Below are positions 9,335 to 46,600 of a stretch of DNA of 64,000 bases, piece after piece. Within the stretch, counting starts at the first letter, position 1. Each line of letters begins with the position of its first letter. Under the pieces are notes generated by a model. It was not told the origin of the DNA and ran no database searches. It saw only the letters and a list, made by a program, of their open reading frames with translations. The stretch is from Antedon mediterranea (taxonomy: Eukaryota; Echinodermata; Crinoidea; Comatulida; Antedonidae). The stretch covers positions 9,840,288 to 9,904,287 of the forward strand of contig NC_092676.1 in assembly GCF_964355755.1 (NCBI RefSeq), written 5' to 3'. Both the position numbers and the translations under genes were made by a program.

Positions 9335-11430
9335 GCTTTTTTTTATGGCAATAGCAAGTAGCAATTGCACCTCTATGTGTTTGTTATTTATGGCAATACC
9401 ATGAAGTAGCAATTGCACAGATATTGGTTTTCTATTTATTTATGGCTATTATCAAGTATAGAAATTGCACAGCTATTGGTTTGCTATTTGTGGCAATATC
9501 AAGTATAGCAATTGCAAGCTATTGGCTTACTATTTGTGGCAATATCAAGTATAGCAATTGTACAGCTATTTGTTTGCTATTTGTGGCAATATCAAGTATA
9601 GCAATTGTACATCTATTGGTTTACTATTTGTAGCAATATCACGTATAGCAATTGCAAGCTATTGGCTTACTATTTGTGGCAATATCAAGTATAGCAATTG
9701 TACAGCTATTTGTTTGCTATTTGTGGCAATATCAAGTATAGCAATTGTACAGCTATTGGTTTACTATTTGTGGCAATATCAAGTATAGCAATTGCAAGCT
9801 ATTTGTTTGCTATTTGTAGCAATATCAAGTATAGCAATTGTACAGCTATTGGTTTACTATTTGTAGCAATATCAAGTATAGTAATTGCACAGCTATTTGC
9901 TTGCTATTTGTGGCAATATCACGTATAGCAATTGCAAGCTATTGGCTTACTATTTGTGGCAATATCAAGTATAGCAATTGCAAGCTATTGGCTTACTATT
10001 TGTGGCAATATCAAGTATAGAAATTGCACAGCTATTAGTTTACTATTTGTAGCAATATCAAGTATAGTAATTGCACAGCTATTTGCTTGCTATTTGTGGC
10101 AATATCACGTATAGCAATTGCAAGCTATTGGCTTACTATTTGTGGCAATATCAAGTATAGCAATTGCAAGCTATTTGTTTGCTATTTGTAGCAATATCAA
10201 GTATAGCAATTGCACATCTATTGGTTTACTATTTGTGGCAATATCAAGTATAGCAATTGCAAGCTATTTGTTTGCTATTTGTGGCAATATCATGTATAGC
10301 AATTGCAAGCTATTTGTGGCAATATCATGTATAGCAATTGTACAGCTATTTGTTTGCTATTTGTGGCAATATCATGTATAGCAATTGCAAGCTATTTGTG
10401 GCAATATCATGTATAGCAATTGTACAGCTATTTGTAGCAATATCAAGTATAGCAATTGTACAGCTGTTGGTTTGCTATTTGTAGCAATATCAAGTATAGC
10501 AATTGCAAGCTATTGGCTTACTATTTGTGGCAATATCAAGTATAGAAATTGCAAGCTATTTGTTTGCTATTTGTAGCAATATCAAGTATAGCAATTGCAC
10601 AGCTATTTGTTTGCTATTTGTGGCAATATCAAGTATAGCAATTGCAAGCTATTTGTTTGCTATTTGTGGCAATATCATGTATAGCAATTGCAAGCTATTT
10701 GTGGCAATATCATGTATAGCAATTGTACAGCTATTTGTAGCAATATCAAGTATAGCAATTGTACAGCTGTTGGTTTGCTATTTGTAGCAATATCAAGTAT
10801 AGCAATTGTACAGCTATTGGTTTGCTATTTGTGGCAATATCAAGTATAGCAATTGTACATCTATTGGTTTACTATTTGTGGCAATATCAAGTATAGCAAT
10901 TGTACATCTATTGGTTTACTATTTGTGGCAATATCAAGTATAGCAATTGTACAGCTATTGGTTTACTATTTGTAGCAATATCAAGTATAGCAATTGTACA
11001 TCTATTGGTTTACTATTTGTGGCAATATCAAGTATAGCAATTGTACATCTATTGGTTTACTATTTGTGGCAATATCAAGTATAGCAATTGTACATCTATT
11101 GGTTTACTATTTGTGGCAATATCAAGTATAGCAATTGTACATCTATTGGTTTACTATTTGTGGCAATATCAAGTATAGCAATTGTACAGCTATTGGTTTA
11201 CTATTTGTAGCAATATCAAGTATAGCAATTGTACATCTATTGGTTTACTATTTGTGGCAATATCAAGTATAGCAATTGTACATCTATTGGTTAGCTATTT
11301 CAATTGCCAATATTCATATAGCAATTGTACAGCTATTTGCTTGCTATTTATGAACTATATCTGGATATAGCAATTGTACAGTTATTTTCTTGCAATTTAT
11401 GGCTATGCTATTTGTTGGCTAGTTTGCTAT
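9335..11430. repeat. Satellite array, 46-47 bp unit, about 44 copies
   Basis: Tandem units of the form TTTGTGGCAATATCAAGTA followed by TAGCAATTGTACATCTATTGG and TTTACTA, 47 bp long, with a 46-bp variant reading AATTGCAAGCTA. Both ends decay into diverged units. The unit contains few stops, so short overlapping ORFs appear in every frame; these are artefacts. It lies between the convergent 3' ends of the LGR and LIN9. Confidence 0.95.
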
Positions 11431-16200: not shown

Positions 16201-19200
16201 GGCTATGTAGAGTCTGGACGTAAGAGTATAGCTCCTATTATGAGATGGCCGGGTACGTGTGTGGGGAAGAGGCCTACGTGACGGCTGGTTTTTTTTTCTC
16301 GAATTAGATCACGTCAATTTTGATATAAAATGTTTATTTAGAACATTGCTGATATTGTATTTTTGTTTGTAAGTACTATTAAATTGTATACAATGTTTAA
16401 CATCGTGTACAACAAACCAATATTGTGTAAATTATCTTGTGATTAAACATGGAATCATGTTTAATCTTTTTAGGCCCAGCTACACTCACGATTGATTGGT
16501 AAACACACAGTGCAGTGTGCATGAAATAAAACGACACTGCAGCCTAGCTAGGCCACCATCTAATTGTATACAGTACCTCCATGTCTATTAGGCCGGGGTA
16601 GGCCTAGACCCTACCAGGGTAAATAAATGATGTTTGCATTATTAATGAGAGACTTATAATTGACTTTTGTTTGCTAGGCCTAGAGTAGATAGGAAGAGTC
16701 TAAATGTCATCCGTCAGGGCACCTATTTATTTTACGCATGCGCACTTAATTCCTTGGATAGATGGACCGCAATTAATGGATCGTATTTTATTTACCATTT
16801 GCACAATTATTCTATTATTACAGTGTAAGTGCAAAGCGATGGTGAAAGTTGTTCTCGTTTTACCTTTGTAATTTTCATGCAATTTCACTACAAAACCATG
16901 ATTCATAATTTTTCCTTACTTATGCAAAATTTTAATTTTCGAATAATCATAATTTGGTTATATTTAGTAATTTTATTGCGTCACGGCACCTAGTTAGCTG
17001 TATGCACTGAGTTAGCATACGTTGTTCGGTTATCTCTATGTATGAACGAACGGTGTGAATTCACTGTGAATCTGGTAGTAGTGCCCTGACAGTGACAGAT
17101 GATACGTATTAATTGTCATCCGTCAGGGCACCTAGTTAACATACACGTTGTTAATTCACTGTGTGTAACTGGTAGTGCCCTGACGGATGATAAGTATTAA
17201 TTGTCATCCGTCAGGGCACTTATGTAGTTAGTTAACATACACGTTGTTAATTCACTGTGTGTAACTTGGTAGTGCCCTGACGGATGATAAGTATTAATTG
17301 TCATCCGTCAGGGCACCTATATAGTTAACATACACGTTGTTAATTCACTGTGAATCTGGTAGTGCCCTGACGGATGATAAGTATTAATTGTCATCCGTCA
17401 GGGCACCTATATAGTTAACATACACGTTGTTAATTTACTGTGAAACTGGTAGTGCCCTGACGGATGATAAGTATTAATTGTCATCCGTCAGGGCACCTAT
17501 AATATATATGTTATAGTTAACATACACGTTGTTAATTCACTGTGAAACTGGTAGTGCCCTGACGGATGATCATTATTAATTGTCATCCGTCAGGGCACCT
17601 ATAATATATATGTTATAGTTAACATACACGTTGTTAATTTACTGTGTAACTGGTAGTGCCCTGACGGATGATCATTATTAATTGTCATCCGTCAGGGCAC
17701 CTATATAGTTAACATACACGTTGTTAATTCACTGTGAAACTGGTAGTGCCCTGACGGATGATCATTATTAATTGTCATCCGTCAGGGCACCTATATAGTT
17801 AACATACACGTTGTTAATTCACTGTGAAACTGGTAGTGCCCTGACGGATGATCATTATTAATTGTCATCTGTCAGGGCACCTACTGTATATAGTTAACAT
17901 ACACGCGTTGTTAATTTACTGTGAAACTGGTAGTGCCCTGACGGATGATAAGTATTAATTGTCATCCGTCAGGGCACCTATAATATATATGTTATAGTTA
18001 ACATACACGTTGTTAATTCACTGTGAATCTGGTAGTGCCCTGACGGATAAGTAGTAGTAATGACTGTAGTATATATTATGGCATGCCAGTCATTGTTTTA
18101 AATACCCTAAACTAACTTGCTTTAATTGTATACACCCCTTTGTTTTTTCTTCTTTTTGAAATAGGTTGAAAAACAATGCCGCCACATTCAAGGATAAAAT
18201 CAGAAAACAGTGAGACAAGAATATATGTAAAATTTATAAACAAGTCACCTAGAAATGTTCGAGTAATCTGGCTTAACTATCAAGGGCAACCTGTATGGCG
18301 GCCATATAACAACACGGCTGGCCTATCGCCAAATCAAACTTTTAACATCTATACATATATAACGCATCCATGGATTTTTAGGGATAATCTTACGGGCGAT
18401 AAAATAGTCTATAAGGAAGGATTGACAGAAAAACAAGTGTATTATCCCAAGGAATTGGCAGAAAATCAAGAATATAATGTAACCTTGGTGTTGCCAATTT
18501 ATAGCCTCAAAGAGCGGTGCCTTCAAGTGATGAGAAGACTTGTACGACAACAATCTGTGCATTCGCTTGAAATTCCACAGACTTTAAAAGATGAAATTCT
18601 GAGACCAGTTTTTCGCATAAATGATACTTAAATGCTATTTTTTAAAAATACAATTATTAGCAACCTTGCCACCATGATTAATTTGTAAATACTATGGAAT
18701 GCTGAGCATGTTATAGCCGAGGTTCTCAACAAACAGCATGTGAGGGCATTTCATATGGCCCGCTAAAGATGCATTGTGTCTCAACAACAAAGATTAATCA
18801 AATCAGCTTTTGAAAAGGCCATTTTGTAGTTTTAATACAGTTTATCAAACATGAGTAGAAAAAACAAGTTTTGACTTATAAAAAGACAAATGAATTATTT
18901 TAACCAAGACATTTTTTTAATTTTTTGCTTTAAATTACAGTTTTTTTCAGGTACATAATTTTTTATTCAACTGTATTATGTGACATTAAATAGCATATTT
19001 AATCAACAAATTAAAAACGATTATTTTTTTATGGGGACAATACCAAAAAAACTGCTTATCTGGACCCCAATGTTATGTGTAAAATCCCACTAAAACTGCT
19101 AAAAACCTATGTGTTAACATACATTTTTGTACATATTAAATCATGTTTTGCAATTTATTTTCAGATATTTATTATTTACAGTACTTTCATTTTTGTTTCT

Positions 19201-33567: not shown

Positions 33568-33689
33568 TACATGGTTATCATGGCCTCTAAATTTTTTTAT
33601 TGTTTCTTTTTTCACAATAATTATTACCTGTGCGGAAAACGTTTAAACTAATATTACGCCCTCTCTACTACGGGGCGCCGTTTGGGACA

Positions 33690-34215
33690 TTGCTAATTTT
33701 GTCGAAATATTACAATTTTGTCTACACATAATTAATTTTGTCAATACAAAATTCATTTTGTCAACACAAAATTCATTTTGTATTGACAAAATTCATTTTT
33801 TGTTGACAAAATTTATTCTGTGTGGACAAAATTCATTTTGTCTCGACAAAATTAATTCTGTGTAAACAAAATTCATTCTGTGTAGACAAAACTAATTCTG
33901 TGTTGACAAAATTAATTCTGTGTAGACAAAATTCATTCTGTAACGACAAAATTCATTTTGTGGCGACAAAATTCATTCTGTAACGACAAAATTCATTCTG
34001 TGTGGACAAAATTAATTCTGTGTAGACAAAATTCATTCTGTGTAGACAAAATTCATTCTGTAACGACAACATTAATTCTGTGTGGACAAAATTAATTCTG
34101 TGTGGACAAAATTAATTCTGTGTAGACAAAATTCATTCTGTGTAGACAAAATGAATTTTGTTGCAACAAAATTCATTTTGTCGAGACAAAATAAATTTTG
34201 TCGCGACAAAATAAA
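33690..34215. repeat. 21-bp tandem array, left arm (about 24 units)
   Basis: Units such as GACAAAATTCATTCTGTGTAG, with variants TGTAAC, TGTCGC and TGTGTGG at one end. Unit boundaries resemble the outer-end motif ATTTTGTC of the surrounding element. Confidence 0.95.
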
Positions 34216-34476
34216 TTTTGTTAGCCGAGCCTACTCAAGCGTGGGACAAAACGTTTTTTAAAACATTTTGTCCCACGCTTGAGTAGGCTCCGTTTTAATA
34301 TTTAAATTAGAAGGCGGAGTTTAAACGTGAAAAGGGCAAGACAGGGTGAAGCTATCTTTGACATTTGTTATTGGTTAAGTTATTATGGCTGAGCATGCCT
34401 CCGTCTCTATTGCTATCATATTAATCTATTTTATAATATCAGGGAACCCCTGAAAATATCAGATATGATCAGTATT

Positions 34477-37400
34477 AGTGGAGTCTGTTAGGGCTGAAAT
34501 AAGGGTGTTTGGTTCAGTTTCTTCCAAAAGCACCAAATTTGGTATACAGGTTGCCCATCCTATACAAATTCAATTTTTGATGGGCGCCAAGCAAAATGAC
34601 CCCTTGGGTCACCTAATTTGCATAATTTAAAATGGCGGACATTTTCGCTTAAACAGTCTATATCTCTAAAAATACTGGTCATAGAGAGTTGATTTTTAGC
34701 CCAAAATGTTTAGAACATAAACATTCCTATTTACGCTAATGAAGTTTTTTTGAAAAAAATGACCGAAAGTACCAGTTTTAACCTTTGACCCATATTTTAA
34801 GGTATTGCCATATCTCAGTAAATAGTTGTCACAGACAGTTTATTTAAGTGTAAAATTGTTCAGAATATATATGTTACTATTTAATTTAATGAAACATTTT
34901 ATCCAAAAATGACTGGAAGTACTCAGTTTTGCCTTTGACCGTTACGATGTAATTACCAGCCTTGTTACGGTTAATATATTTTGATATCCATAAAACTACT
35001 TGTCATAGAGAGTTAATGTTGGTGTCAAAATGTTCAGAACATAAACATTTCTATTTACTATAATAAAGTTTTTTCTCAAATAATGACCAGAAATACCATA
35101 TTTGACCTTTGACCTGTTTTTTCAGGCAAATTGCCATATCTCATTATTGGGTTGGAGTGGAAAGTTCATTTTGGTGTCAGATTGTTCAGAATATATATGT
35201 TTCTATTCTGCTTAATAGAAGACTTTTCAAAAAAATGTCAGGAAGTATAGTTATTGGCTTGTTAAATACATAAAATTTATAAATTTGTTCAGTTAATTGT
35301 ATAGTTAACTGTATATTTATGATATTATTTTGCAACCCACTTTTGAGCACTTGTCGAAGATGGCTGCTTGCATGTGCAATTGAACAAAGTATACTGAACA
35401 AAGTTGAATAGATTGTCCTATTTGTAGTGAGTCTAGAGTGATGTAAATGAGAAATGAGAAAATTGTATATACAAAAAATACCCAATCTCATCTAATCGAG
35501 TAATTAAATGAAGTCTTCCACATATTTAGCAATAATGTGTAGGCCTACTGATGAAATCCAGTAAAAGTTTTGTTTTGGAAAGTTAGTGTTTCTGTCACTT
35601 GTGTTTGCTGTTGCATAACAATTTCATGTTGCTACATTTCTCTTTGTTGCCATAACACGAACAACCACTGAATGGGGAAAAGACACCAAAGATTTCTGTC
35701 CTCCAGACCTAAGTCATCCAAGGACCGTCGAGCTTGGTGGTTCTCAAAGATTTTCAAATAAAAAAAAAAAAGAAATTGACCATATACAGTAATCATCTAG
35801 AAGAGATTGGATGAATAGGAACAGTTTTGTTACTAATGACATGTTACGCTCTAGTATCCTCTTTTTCATATATTGCCCTTTTTTCAAACTTAAAATGAAC
35901 TCTGTATTGCATGTCCTTGACTATGAGAACAATGCAAATTTTATGAATGGAAATGTTGTGCAAAAATCAACAAAAAGGTTTAGCCTCATTTCTAAGAAAC
36001 AATATCATACTCAAGCTCAGAACATGATGGGGCATTTCGTCTTTACGAGAACACTGAAAATATTACAATTACCATACATGTGCTTATGGTGACTGAACCA
36101 ACCAGACTGTTCAAGGATTGCTAAAGAAGTTTGAATAAGCCATTATTTTCCAAATACTCGATATGAGAAAGGACACATCATTCAATACTTTGAAAATGTA
36201 CATAAAAGAAATGAAAGTAATAAAAGTAAATCTGTTCATGAGGTTAAAACAGCTCATCAATACATTATGTTACACAAGCCAAGAGTTGTTACCAATTCCA
36301 ATATAACAACAATTTAACATTTACTAATCAACCAAAAATCAAGTAAAAAGGCAATAATGAAAAAGATGATACTAAGGCGTAATGTCATAAGTAACAAAAC
36401 TGTAATACCCAAATCGTGTCCAGATGATGGCCAAATTTTTTAAAATTAAAATTCGAGAATTCTGCCAAGTTTGGCGGACCAAGGATTACTTTAGGTCTGG
36501 TGGAAAAAATATATTTTTCAGTTGTGGTTCGTGATATGGCAACAGTAGTCTAGTTTTTATATTGTGCATCCCGAAAATGTCCATCCTTTTAATTAGTAGG
36601 TTATACCCCAGTTTGAAGGCCCTTTAAAGAAAGATACTCAGCGAAGAAATGCAATATAGGACAATTACCCTGAATGTAACAACCAAACAAACACAAGTGA
36701 TGGAAACACTAACTTTCCAAAACAAAACATTATTGCTAAATGTGTAGAAGACTTCATTTAAGTACTCGATTAGATGAGAATGAGATTGGGTATTTTTTGT
36801 CTATACAATTTTCTCTCATTTGCGTTACTCTAGACTCACTACAAATAAGACTATATTCAACTTCATTCAGTATACTTCGTTCAATTGCACATGCAAGTAG
36901 CCATCTTCGACAAGTGCTCAAAAGTGGATTGGAAAATAATATAAATATACAGTTAACTTGAACAAATTTATAATTAATTTTTATGTATGTAACAGGTCAA
37001 CTGTACTTCCTGACATTTTTTGGAAAAATCTTCTATTAAACATAATAGTAACATATATATTCTGAACAATCTGACACCAAATTGAACTTTCCACGCCAAC
37101 CCAATAATGAGATATAGCAATTTGCCTGAAAAAACAGGTCAAAGGTCAAATATGGTATTTCTGGTCATTATTTGAGAAAAAACTTTATTATAGTAAATAG
37201 AAATGTTTATGTTCTGAACATTTTGACACCAACATTAACTCTCTATGACAAGTAGTTTTATGGATATCAAAATATATTAACCATAAAAAGGTTGGTAATT
37301 ACACCGTAACGGTCAAAGGCAAAACTGAGTACTTCCGGTCATTTTTGGATAAAATGTTTCATTAAACTAAATAGTAACATATATATTCTGAACAATTTGA

Positions 37401-37763
37401 CACTTAAATAAACTGTCTGTGACAACTATTTACTGAGATATGGCAATGCCTTAAAATATGGGTCAAAGGTTAAAACTGGTACTTCCGGTCTTTTTTTTCT
37501 AAAATACTTCATTAGAGTAAATAGTAGGAATGTTTATGTTCTGAACATTTTGAGCTAAAAATCAACTCTCTATGACCAGTAGTTTCAGAGATATAGACTG
37601 TTTAAGCGAAAGTGTCCGCCATTTAAAATTATGCAAATTAGGTGACCCAAGGGGTCATTTTGCTTGGCGCCCATCAAAAATTGAATTTGTATAGGGTGGG
37701 CAACCTGTATACCAAATTTGATGCTTTTGGAAAAAAGTGAACCAAAATATAACAGACTCCACT
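34477..37763. mobile_element. 3.3-kb fold-back with 1.1-kb arms, nested
   Basis: AGTGGAGTCTGTTA at 34477 is inverted at 37750-37763. The arms pair from there to about 35610 and 36690, with weaker pairing to 35735 and 36470. Each arm has about four degenerate tandem modules of the type CATAGAGAGTT, AAAATGTTCAGAACATAAAC, AATGACC and CCTTTGACC. Frames in the two arms share SIAHASSHLRQVLKSGL because the arms are copies. The centre (35735-36470) has one short frame of no known family. Confidence 0.85.
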
Positions 37764-38507
37764 ATATTCATACTTTGACAATTTAATATCTACGTCGTCA
37801 GTAATAATTATTATTATAATGTATTCTATATTAAAAAATCGGAAAATGGTTTTCATTAGAGCCCTTATTACTTAAGTAAAATTGTAGTAATGGGGCTATT
37901 TAATATTTTGTCGTTTAAAATATTATTTATTAATCTTATAAAATGTATATACTTTATTTTAAAATTAAAGATGTATTGTCTCCCAAAATCATGAAAAATA
38001 AAGAATAGGCCATTATGCAATTTTAATGAAGTTGTTCACTTCCATAAGAAAAAAGAACGGGGAAAACAATTATTTCAACTATAAAAAGACAAAATAAACA
38101 GTTAAATTACCCAAAAACTCATTGGCTTCCAGACAATTTGACAATTTTTTGCTTTAAATTACAGTTTTTTCAGGTAAATAATTTTTTTTCAGACCCAATT
38201 TTTTGTGAAAGTGAATAACTATTATGTGACATTAAAATAACATATTCAACAAAAAGATTTAAAAAAAACATTTTTTTCAGGGGACAATATATCTTTAAGA
38301 TAATAATAATCATTGCAGAAATAATGATGCTGAAAGCTGTCCGTTATTTGAAAAAAAAAACATTTAAAGAACTGACTACAGAAGATTGCTCACGTTAGTT
38401 TTATTATAACAATCATCCACCCTGCGAAACCTAATAACCTTTAACCTACAGTAGTAAGTAGGCCAGGTAGCCTATGTTGGCTAGGTTCAGGACTGATTGC
38501 CCATAAA

Positions 38508-38727
38508 ACATTCGATGTATAAATATCAACACCCCAGACAGTGTAATAATGACCTTTCCAGACCGAAGCTGGTTTGACTGAGGGTCTGGGCTTCTCCAAG
38601 ATTACGCAAGTTGTCTAGGACCTCTTCAGGTAAAGCTTCAATAATGGGGCTATTCGATTCGATTCGAACATTCGATGTATAAATATCAACACCCCAGACA
38701 GTGTAATAATGACCTTTCCAGACCGAA
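38508..38727. repeat. 60-bp direct repeat, spaced 160 bp
   Basis: AACATTCGATGTATAAATAT begins identical 60-bp copies at 38508-38567 and 38668-38727, within the interior of the 6.8-kb element. The rest of 37764-39820 is AT-rich and without a gene. Confidence 0.85.
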
Positions 38728-39889
38728 AACCATTCTGCCCGAAATTACAATACTTTCTCGATACAACTCCATATTTTATTAGTGGAAAATGCATTTTTAT
38801 TTAACATCAATCTTATCAAGCCAGGCAAAGACTGAATACGTACATTAAAAGTACAAAGAACAATGTAAACCTATAAACAATTATTTGCAATTACCAATGT
38901 ATAATAAATAAAATCAATCATGGAGAAGGTGGAAAGATTATATACACTGCCATGGGAATGGATACTTGAGTGGCGCCATATGTCAGTTGTGTGAACACCC
39001 ATTTAACTATTTGGTCAAAGTTGAATTATATCTTTCGAGGGTGTAAATATATAATAATATGCAACCGAGAGTAAAATTAATAGTTAAACGTAAATTTGAA
39101 ATTAAATTTAACTTTTTAACGACAATTTGCAATACTCATAATCTATGGCGTACCAAACTGTCATTTATTTAGGCAACTAAAATATCTTAGTTTTTAATAG
39201 ATGTAGTTAGTTTACAATATAGATCTTAGGTTCCAATAGAGATATATCCCTGTTATAACCAAGATATCTTTTCAATAAAGATATCTCTATTATTCCAATT
39301 AGAGACAATTAATATATGTCTTAAGAGATATATCATAGTTTTGTTACCTTGAGTTAGGCCTATTAGCAATTTAGTATTCCTATCAAATAAACTTGGTAGG
39401 CCTATATAGACGACGCAATTCCCATAAGAATAAATAGGCCTATACTAACTATTATATTAAAATAAATGTATTAACTAAAATCATTTCATTACTACTCAAC
39501 TTATCAGATGTTATCGTAAATAGTGTTGTCATTTTCTTTATCAATATTATCGGTATCGATATAAATCTTCAACCATCTTTAATATTTATTACCAAAATTG
39601 GTAGGCATATAGGGCTACCCGGGAGGGCTACGTGTTCCGTTTTGCTGAATCGGAATTAATTTTAAGTATACAATAATATTGTTATACGTCAGTATAAACT
39701 GTACTTATACTCGACGCAAAGTATTCAAGTTCACCGGTGTAGAGGAGGTCGTAAAATGATATTCGCGAGCTGTTTGATCGTAGGCCTATAACTGTCAATC
39801 TTCGAGTTTCCCATAACAACCCCGCCTTCTAATTTAAATGTTAAAACGTTTTGTCCCACGCTTGAGTAGGCTCGGCTAACAAAATTTAT

Positions 39890-40400
39890 TTTGTCGCGAC
39901 AAAATAAATTTTGTTGCAACAAAATGAATTTTGTCTACACAGAATGAATTTTGTCTACACAGAATGAATTTTGTCTACACAGAATAAATTTTGTCTACAC
40001 AGAATACATTTTGTCGCCACAAAATGAATTTTGTCCACACAGAATTAATTTTGTCTACACAGAATTAATTTTGTCCACACAGAATTAATTTTGTCTACAC
40101 AAAATGAATTTTGTCGTTACAGAATGAATTTTGTCGCCACAAAATGAATTTTGTCGTTACAGAATGAATTTTGTCTACACAGAATTAATTTTGTCAACAC
40201 AGAATTAATTTTGTCTACACAGAATGAATTTTGTTTACACAGAATTAATTTTGTCGAGACAAAATGAATTTTGTCAAGACAAAATTAATTTTGTCCACAC
40301 AGAATAAATTTTGTCAACACAAAATGAATTTTGTCAATACAAAATGAATTTTGTGTTGACAAAATGAATTTTGTATTGACAAAATTAATTATGTGTAGAC
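39890..40400. repeat. 21-bp tandem array, right arm (about 24 units)
   Basis: The inverted counterpart of 33690-34215, with units such as AATTTTGTCTACACAGAATG. Units have diverged individually between arms, so the arms have not been recently homogenised. Confidence 0.95.
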
Positions 40401-40679
40401 AAAATTGTAATATTTCGACAAAATTAGCATTGTCCCATACGGCGCCCCGTACTCTACACACTTTCCACTGGTCATCCACCACACACACACGTGTCGTCGC
40501 TGGTGGTGCGTGACGACAATAAATGACGTAATTTCTAATAATCTTTGATTCTTCTGTAGAAAAAAAAGCTGACGGCGGCGGAAGAGAGTATTTGGCAAGA
40601 AGTTACGAAACCTGGCGTTAAAAAGCTAATTAATGTATTTAAATAATAAATAATTGTCTAGGATAGCCTGACAAACCAT

Positions 40680-43600: not shown

Positions 43601-46600
43601 CAGCTGTTAATGGAAAACAAGAGGATGGTTTAAAGAAGAGTATAGCAAGTGGAACCAACAACCAAAATGCAATTGCTGTGCTTGGAGGAAAATTAAAGAA
43701 ACCTATGCCACCACAACATAGAAGTTCTAATATGCCACCCCAACATAGAAACTCAAACATGCCACCCCAACATACAAACTCAAACATGCCACCCCAACAT
43801 ACAAACTCAAACATGCCACCCCAACATAGACGTCAAGTTAATGGCACACCAGTTAAGCGCAAAGGTAAGTATTCTGGGCTTGCATTTCTACCCTACTGTA
43901 GGGCAACCAAAAATGTATGTAGGCCAATTAAAAATGGTCAGTCCCGATGGTCAAGTAAAATAAACAAAATATTTCAAAAATGTTTTACATCAGTTGTTGT
44001 GGAATACAACTGTAGATCAGATGTTTGATAATTTCAGCCAGCAAATGTTTCGGGCACCAACAAATTTAGAGGTTACCTGAAACTCTGGTTGTCGACCGAA
44101 CAAAATCTTGATTGGAATGTAACAGTACAGGAATGCAGGAAACTAATGACAGGATTAATAACAATTCATGGATCTCCATGTTACCCGGACTGGCAATCCA
44201 CTCTCTGTTAAGATTCATGGATCTCCGTGTTACCCGGACTGGCAATCCACTCTCTGTTAAGATTCATGGATCTCCGTGTTACCCGGACTGGCAATCCACT
44301 CTCTGTTAAGATTCTGTACAGTACATGTCTCTCGTTCTCCCTTTAGTTGATCTAACTCTTTATATGAATAAATATTTGAATACAAAAACTGATTTTTACT
44401 GACATTACTTTTTTTCAGCGCCACCACCTAAAGGTAGAATGATGAAATTAAAACGTGGTCGATTATGCAGTGATGATGAGGACGACGAGGATGATGACTT
44501 CATTGATGACACTGGTGAAGACGTTGATGTCTCTAAATACATTAGACAGATATTTGGTTATGATAAACGCAAGTATGTACAGTATTACCTAGGATAATGA
44601 TGATAATAACATTTTTCTCAAAAAATTTCATCTGGTTTCAATGAATATTTAAATAAATAAAGGTTAACTTTTAGTTAAACCAGTTGACAAGTACTTACTT
44701 GCTACGTTTCAGCTACTTTCAGTAGCCTTGGTCACGCAAATGACGTTGACATGATGTTCTGTCATTCGTCATAGTTCGGTGAATTACGCCACCTCTCGTC
44801 TGATGTTCAGCTTTCTGCTGGTGTCCCCCTTTGGATGCTCGGGTGTCCCTTTTTATTAAGTCATTGTAGATGTGGCTCAGTTCATGTCCTCCCTGGTCTC
44901 TGTTGATGTTCATATTCGTTTTTCTTATCCAAATGGCTTCTTTTATTTTTCTTGATAAGTAGTGTTGTTCTTTGTCTAATATTTTTGTATTTTCAAAATC
45001 CGGTATGTGATTTTCTATGGTGGCGTGATCTGTGATAGCTGATTTGTGTAGAATTTTAGATTGTGAATGGCGAGCGCTCCTGGTTCTTGTCCCTACCGTA
45101 TTTTTTTCCACGTCTGTTTTGTGTTCTATTATTATCATCTTGCATTTTGGTGTTGACGGTATCATCTTGCATTTTGGTGTTGACGGTATCATCTTGCATT
45201 TTGGTGTTGACGGTATCATCTTGCATTTTGGTGTTGACGGTATCATCTTGCATTTTGGTGTTGACGGTATCATCTTGCATTTTGGTGTTGACGGTATCAT
45301 CTTGCATTTTGGTGTTGACGGTATCATCTTTCATTTTGGTGTTGACGGTATCATCTTGCATTTTGGTGTTGACGGTATCATCTTGCATTTTGGTGTTGAC
45401 GGTATCATCTTGCATTTTGGTGTTGACGGTATCATCTTGCATTTTGGTGTTGACGGTATCATCTTGCATTTTGGTGTTGACGGTATCATCTTGCATTTTG
45501 GTGTTGACGGTATCATCTTCCATTTTGGTGTTCACGGTATCATCTTGCATTTTGGTGTTGACGGTATCATCTTCCATTTTGGTGTTCACGGTATCATCTT
45601 GCATTTTGGTGTTGACGGTATCATCTTGCATTTTGGTGTTGACGGTATCATCTTGCATTTTGGTGTTGACGGTATCATCTTGCATTTTGGTGTTGACGGT
45701 ATCATCTTGCATTTTGGTGTTGACGGTATCATCTTGCATTTTGGTGTTGACGGTATCATCTTGCATTTTGGTGTTGACGGTATCATCTTGCATTTTGGTG
45801 TTGACGGTATCATCTTGCATTTTGGTGTTGACGGTATCATCTTGCATTTTGGTGTTGACGGTATCATCTTCCATTTTGGTGTTCACGGTATCATCTTGCA
45901 TTTTGGTGTTCACGGTATCATCTTGCATTTTGGTGTTCACGGTATCATCTTGCATTCTATTCTTACTACAGTATTCTGTGTAGAACCTTGTTTAAGTATA
46001 CAGTAGTCACAAATAGATTTGTTACATTATACAGCTGAGCTTCACAATTTTTTTCTATAAGTTTCAACATTTTTTTATTATGTTTTATACATTTTCCATC
46101 TATTTTCTTTTAACGATACTATATTAGATTTCTAATTGCTCGGTCAACATTAGTGATAGGATTTATGGAATTAATATTGTATATTTGTTTACTTTTAAGT
46201 TATGGCTTTGAGAGTGAACATGCACTGAACAATATGGAAGCCAGCTACAGTCAAATCATGAAGGAAGAGACTAGAAGGTATTATTATCTATTAAGCTATT
46301 TTTGAAGTTCATTCAATAAGCCGTTTATTATTTTTTTGGAGGGGGGAGGGTGTAATTAGGTTAATGTATAATCAAATCAATTATCTCTAGATATAAACAA
46401 ATTTTGCAACACAATTAATATCAAGACATGATAAAATATGCTAAAAAATGATCAGAATGTTTGGTAAATCGTAGATCATGGCAGTCAATGATTCTGCTAC
46501 AAATAGTAATGTGATACAATATTGTGTAATTTGACAATAATATTCATTCTTATATAGCTAGCGTGTATTGCACAATGCTTCTACTGTGTAAGCACTTCAC

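Follow-up and report, generated by a model that had tools for sequence, protein, structure and literature searches.

The hairpin array that lies just upstream of the VHL gene is part of a transposon TIR and not a feature of VHL. More specifically, it is very probably the inner, tandemly repeated domain of the TIR of a foldback-type Mutator-like DNA transposon, for which we infer the steps of transposase recognition, array turnover and right-TIR loss. The copies of this family have sharp shared termini, mirror-image TIRs and 9-bp TSDs, and they include a transposase-bearing copy and an internally deleted derivative; the copy in the window, i.e. in the whole analysed stretch of 64,000 nucleotides from Antedon mediterranea (C7:9840288-9904287), has the left TIR only. 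What remains in the window is thus a solo TIR, an incomplete element that is probably dead. Recognising these hairpins, next to a key gene of oxygen sensing, as transposon debris averts a false regulatory story. It also adds a foldback MULE for which a gene-bearing copy (MULE-SWIM, Ulp1, PHD) and deletion derivatives are found in one genome.

A complete member consists of the terminus GGAAGAGTCTAAATG with one copy of a 16-bp arm, a unique subterminal domain of ~330 bp, an array of 88-102-bp units and a mirror-image second TIR, and a gene-bearing copy has an additional ~10 kb between the TIRs that encodes a MULE transposase with SWIM, an Ulp1 protease and PHD. Judging from the sequences, the transposase would recognise the 16-bp arm, and the array would gain or lose units through slippage or unequal exchange. 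After inserting just upstream of the sole VHL gene, the window copy would have lost its right TIR and would now be immobile.

Structure of the TIR in the window

TRF finds a tandem array at 17093-18048 with a period of 90 and 10.1 copies. The ten ~90-bp units are spaced 88-102 bp from start to start, and in each of them a left arm is followed by a 13-bp link, a right arm and an interior of ~45 bp. With up to 2 mismatches allowed, the window contains 21 copies of the 16-bp arm (TCATCCGTCAGGGCAC), versus 0.02 expected from dinucleotide shuffles; all 21 are confined to 16707-18050, and 19 of them are perfect, while those at 17865 and 18035 have one mismatch each. The first ten arms of the array start at 17116, 17175, 17204, 17272, 17301, 17362, 17391, 17452, 17481 and 17554, the last ten at 17583, 17656, 17685, 17746, 17775, 17836, 17865, 17933, 17962 and 18035. 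Both hairpin registers are present in the window array and they are near-equal in predicted stability: arm-45-arm is predicted to fold with -37.4 kcal/mol as RNA and -20.7 kcal/mol as DNA, arm-13-arm with -35.3 and -20.1 kcal/mol, respectively. The sequence-only reading was thus right in describing about ten 90-bp double-hairpin units, a 13-bp link able to close a hairpin of its own and two alternative fold registers. It had placed the start of the feature at 16980, which is incorrect; the feature starts at 16692, and a degenerate unit (~16971-17092) precedes the array.

The whole remnant, i.e. the orphaned left TIR, occupies 16692..18061 on the forward strand, as do all its parts. It aligns at 83-89% to the TIRs of other loci, and in the other copies homology breaks off sharply at GGAAGAGTC. 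The terminus GGAAGAGTCTAAATG (16692..16706) consists of 15 bases with which 10 of the 11 TIR ends compared from elsewhere also begin; the remaining end is without the GG, and outside the terminus the flanks differ at once. It is followed by a perfect terminal copy of the arm (16707..16722), which has its equivalent in nearly all TIR ends and is altered in the C8 copy L041 and, by one base, in the right end of the C5 copy. This lone arm had been taken as a pointer to the source element, a suggestion that was justified in that it is a copy of the terminal motif, although its coordinate of 16704 has to be corrected to 16707-16722. The unique subterminal domain (16723..16970) was recognised with a 380-bp query derived from C3, which aligns with the window at 89% and also hits 11 strong ends outside it. 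Alignment to the unit consensus shows a degenerate first unit at 16971..17092, with a decayed arm (GCGTCACGGCAC, 4 mismatches, at 16974) and a repeat-like tail (GAATTCACTGTGAATCTGG). The tandem array of ~10 units, as delimited by TRF, the repeats and the arm map, spans 17093..18061, and its first left arm (~17086-17108) is split by an insertion.

No arm or TIR match that could represent a right end was found downstream of the window copy, and no repeat of its 9-bp left flank GAGTAGATA was found nearby; the copy is without a TSD because the right end is missing. In the TIR tree it falls outside the other strong copies, with an end branch of 0.033 and a support of 83/87 for the fork that unites the others.

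Other repeats were seen in the window as well. At 33669-34268 and 39836-40451 there is a pair of inverted TIRs (~600 bp, 91%) that consist of 20-bp tandem repeats, with inner inverted repeats (95%) at 34508-35250 and 37001-37746. The region 33669-40451 is apparently a second foldback-like element, unrelated to the hairpin array; it contains no long transposase ORF, and a CTCTAC direct repeat, noticed by eye, may flank it. Two further tandem arrays were detected by TRF, one of 47 bp at 9342-11386 (~45 copies) and one of 27 bp at 45133-45956 (30.5 copies, 98% match).

Copies of the family and the transposase gene

The search of the genome (354 Mb, 18 contigs) for the arm, which the sequence-only reading had proposed, gave 1,160 matches at up to 2 mismatches versus 18 for the reversed control. 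A 135-bp unit query revealed arrays at a handful of loci, with the strand often flipping inside one locus. Arms were mapped in seven stretches, of which two cover the left and right ends of the C2 copy; repeat counts are lower bounds, and the stretches read include a minority of the ~20 degenerate copies. The seven stretches share the same anatomy, i.e. a lone arm by each outer end, a gap of ~330-380 bp, the array, and then the mirror image. By pairwise alignment the outer border is the same base across the copies, namely GGAAGAGTCTAAATG followed by the arm, and the flanks are unrelated. At one locus (C8:7.50 Mb) an insert of ~3 kb between inverted repeats of ~820 bp (87%) is located inside an array of the window family (L041:2132-5101); it looks like a separate TIR element nested in the array.

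Among further loci with a window-type TIR, both ends are present in five, and three of these have perfect 9-bp TSDs. Four compact copies with both ends were identified, and a perfect 9-bp TSD was found in three of the four: C10 (2,516 bp, TATTTGCAC), C5 (3,425 bp, GCTAGGCTA) and C3 (5,561 bp, ACTGAACTC). Examination of the flanks of the fourth, C8 L042 (2,924 bp), showed no TSD. The chance of a 9-bp duplication is ~5e-6 per pair. TSDs of MULEs are 8-11 bp long (PMC6446971), usually 9 bp as in the three compact copies, and the long TIRs with conserved ends are likewise as in MULEs; an outer unique domain plus tandem repeats of variable copy number within the TIRs is the foldback pattern. In the TIR tree the C10 and C5 copies, which lie in opposite orientation, are sisters. 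Since these sisters carry 21 and 31 arms per strand, respectively, array length varies among close copies.

The C2 copy has mirror-image TIRs (37182489-37185434 and 37195622-37198075) that flank ~10 kb. Interior ORFs match models of the ZSWIM1-3 RNaseH-like domain (4e-14), MULE transposase (PF10551, 1.7e-8), ALS2CR8-like, SWIM (5e-6), Peptidase_C48, i.e. Ulp1 (6e-9), and PHD (PF00628, 2.5e-5, at L040:3813-4082), and PF21056 is also over the cut-off between the TIRs. PF10551 and PF21056 identify a MULE-type DDE transposase, in which D..D..CxxH..E-like residues can be read from the sequence. Exons were joined by eye for two of the queries, that for Ulp1 and an extended one for MULE; the MULE and SWIM matches pass the cut-offs on single ORFs too. 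The PHD finger, which is a character of Rehavkus elements, is encoded by the element, be it on the MULE protein or on a separate one. We considered a separate MULE nested inside the C2 foldback element and rejected it on account of the interior borders, at which no inverted repeats were found beyond array residue and simple repeats.

A weakness is that the flanks of the C2 copy show no TSD; its left end is also without the first two bases of GGAAGAGTCTAAATG. In the TIR tree the left ends of C2 and C3 are identical and the right ends group together (support 100/98), which makes C3 a C2-type element with an internal deletion; this derivative has a TSD whereas C2 has none. An intact full-length match to the transposase ORF was found in C2 only, and the related sequences, most of which lie on C4, are incomplete or disrupted. 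A cluster of MULE-transposase fragments at C4:14.16-14.50 Mb (L049-L051, L053, L067-L069) has 58-88% protein identity to the C2 gene. No TIR arms were found with the C4 relatives in the stretches sampled, which counts against the present reading.

Variability of the arms and the competing explanations

Wraparound dynamic programming was used to align about 198 units, taken from nine arrays, to the unit. The mean substitution is 1.1% in the arms, 2.7% in the links and 4.7% in the interiors. Variants common to at least 5% of the units occur in none of the 32 arm columns versus 11 of the 58 others (Fisher p = 0.0067, an optimistic value because shared variants are not independent events). Rare variants, on the other hand, are equally frequent, 1.1% in the arms versus ~0.8% elsewhere with equal medians, so the difference lies in the variants shared by at least 5% of the units, and recent purifying selection on the arms is unsupported. 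In the older C1 copies the arms are more mutated. Conservation of the arms, as the sequence-only reading perceived it, therefore applies to older variants shared across the family and not to recent mutations; the comparison of arms and interiors on aligned units, also proposed there, separates the means (1.1% vs 4.7%) and not the rare variants. We read the alignment as indicating that arms mutate freely, yet that arm variants failed to spread with the family. Such a pattern fits selection for the arms in transposition or amplification. It does not suggest a host function of the arms in the window copy, and host constraint on them, one of two options in that same reading, is not supported, given the equal rare variants and the mutated arms of older copies.

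An array at C3:21.37 Mb, which came to light when arms with a following A or G were searched for, belongs to a second family. Its 88-bp unit contains the core TGTCATCCGTCAGGGCA in the same head-to-head layout as in the first family, and the link and interior are otherwise dissimilar. The second family has at least 593 unit matches at many loci, some of them as outward-facing pairs. Hairpin arrays of this family are seen at L070-L074 and on C1, C3, C4, C6 and C8, and they are more abundant than those of the window's family. One copy (C8:10.05 Mb, 4,513 bp) has GGAAGGATCTAAAT at both ends, close to the terminus of the first family, and an 8-bp duplication, CACGATGT. In one interior of the second family (C3:23.3 Mb) no transposase was found, and the only long ORFs are two reverse-transcriptase-like ones, identified by eye. 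Measured from stop to stop, these ORFs are 979 and 878 aa long; they lie between two second-family arrays in L072 (C3:23295540-23305240) and are probably LINE insertions.

The arm core is common to the terminus, both unit orientations and the second family. That two families share the core and not the spacers is the best sequence evidence for its being recognised by the transposase, and it offers a natural test of TIR repeats as amplified binding sites. By analogy with Galileo, we infer that the arms are putative transposase-recognition sites amplified within the TIR. We lean towards the terminal arm as the putative primary site and the array arms as putative secondary sites. A further step, which we propose only tentatively and which has the odds against it, is that the terminal site was made into a head-to-head pair and amplified, independently of the spacer, with one compact copy reaching up to ~50 pairs, and that transposition itself selects for how many paired sites there are. 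Within the transposon reading, it is less likely than not that the arms owe their likeness to gene conversion between arms, or to cruciform- or hairpin-mediated amplification, with no recognition by a protein. Two opposed arms per unit would double the conversion partners, both registers fold well, rare variants are equal in the arms and elsewhere, and unit number differs among sister copies. Conversion within an array, however, does not explain a core that stands alone at the outer terminus or that recurs in a second family with dissimilar interiors.

The gene next to the array is a host gene outside the element. The VHL coding sequence (18176..18631, forward strand; PF01847 4.7e-16, PF17211 2.3e-9) reads through without interruption for 151 codons, starting at the ATG at 18176, its VHL-box match spans 33 of 49 positions, and no other VHL gene was found genome-wide. 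The array could be conceived as a VHL satellite or regulatory array that acts through long dsRNA from a 5' intron or through a promoter cruciform, given that the TIR ends only ~115 bp upstream of the ATG of this sole VHL gene, that its predicted folding is strong and that an acceptor-like tract, tttttgaaatag, can be read at 18163-18164, where it ends at 18164; from this tract only, a 5'-UTR intron is possible. We consider such a role very unlikely, since position is the sole tie to VHL, while like sequence elsewhere in the genome comes with transposon ends and TSDs, and arms of older copies are mutated. The sequence-only reading had likened the array to a chain of cruciforms placed just before VHL; what is found instead is a transposon TIR bounded at 16692. 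A Helitron- or Helentron-type element with a minisatellite has next to no probability. Such elements do carry dispersed short arrays, as in bivalves, but Helitrons are not known to make a TSD, and the mirror-image TIRs, the 9-bp TSDs of three copies and the DDE-type MULE transposase rule this type out.

Comparison with known foldback elements

The element in the window represents a new family of an already established kind, since foldback TIRs with tandem repeats are known, mostly from the Mutator superfamily. Among known elements, FB/NOF-Rehavkus, Tm1 and Tetris are close relatives, and FB/NOF is itself linked to Rehavkus. What is distinctive here is that the units are inverted repeats of the terminal site and that the gene set combines SWIM, Ulp1 and PHD.

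Rehavkus is reported to have 9-bp TSDs, a minisatellite ahead of the 3' TIR, a PHD finger and TIRs of 26-400 bp (PMC6446971). The TSDs, the minisatellite and PHD recur in the window's family; in contrast, the C2 TIRs are ~2.5-2.9 kb long and each contains the array, and SWIM and Ulp1 domains are encoded in addition, a comparison made by description. Tm1, a Mutator/Foldback element of root-knot nematodes, likewise combines composite TIRs, in which the tandem repeats are variable, with TSDs of 9 bp and one autonomous MULE copy (PMC3169594), all of which have counterparts here. Its repeats, however, are ~14-bp motifs and not ~90-bp units that are each an inverted repeat, and it encodes a FLYWCH-MULE where the present family has SWIM, Ulp1 and PHD.

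Tetris of Drosophila virilis combines an outer flanking domain with ~220-bp tandem repeats in the TIR and has 8-10 bp TSDs, and its repeat and terminal domain have a short stretch in common (PMC4079207). The window's family resembles it in the outer domain, in the TIR repeats, in the stretch that repeat and terminus share and in TSD length; unit length and form differ, and the Tetris repeat has expanded into satellite DNA. Tetris is also one of the foldback families with no known transposase, unlike the family described here. Galileo, a foldback-like element of the P superfamily, has long TIRs whose expandable tandem repeats bear secondary transposase-binding sites, and solo TIRs are its commonest class (64 of 170; PMC3573991). 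Expandable TIR repeats and a solo TIR are common to both; the secondary binding sites are those of Galileo and putative here. With a P-type transposase and 7-bp TSDs as opposed to a MULE domain and 9 bp, Galileo works alike, and the window's family is not a member of it.
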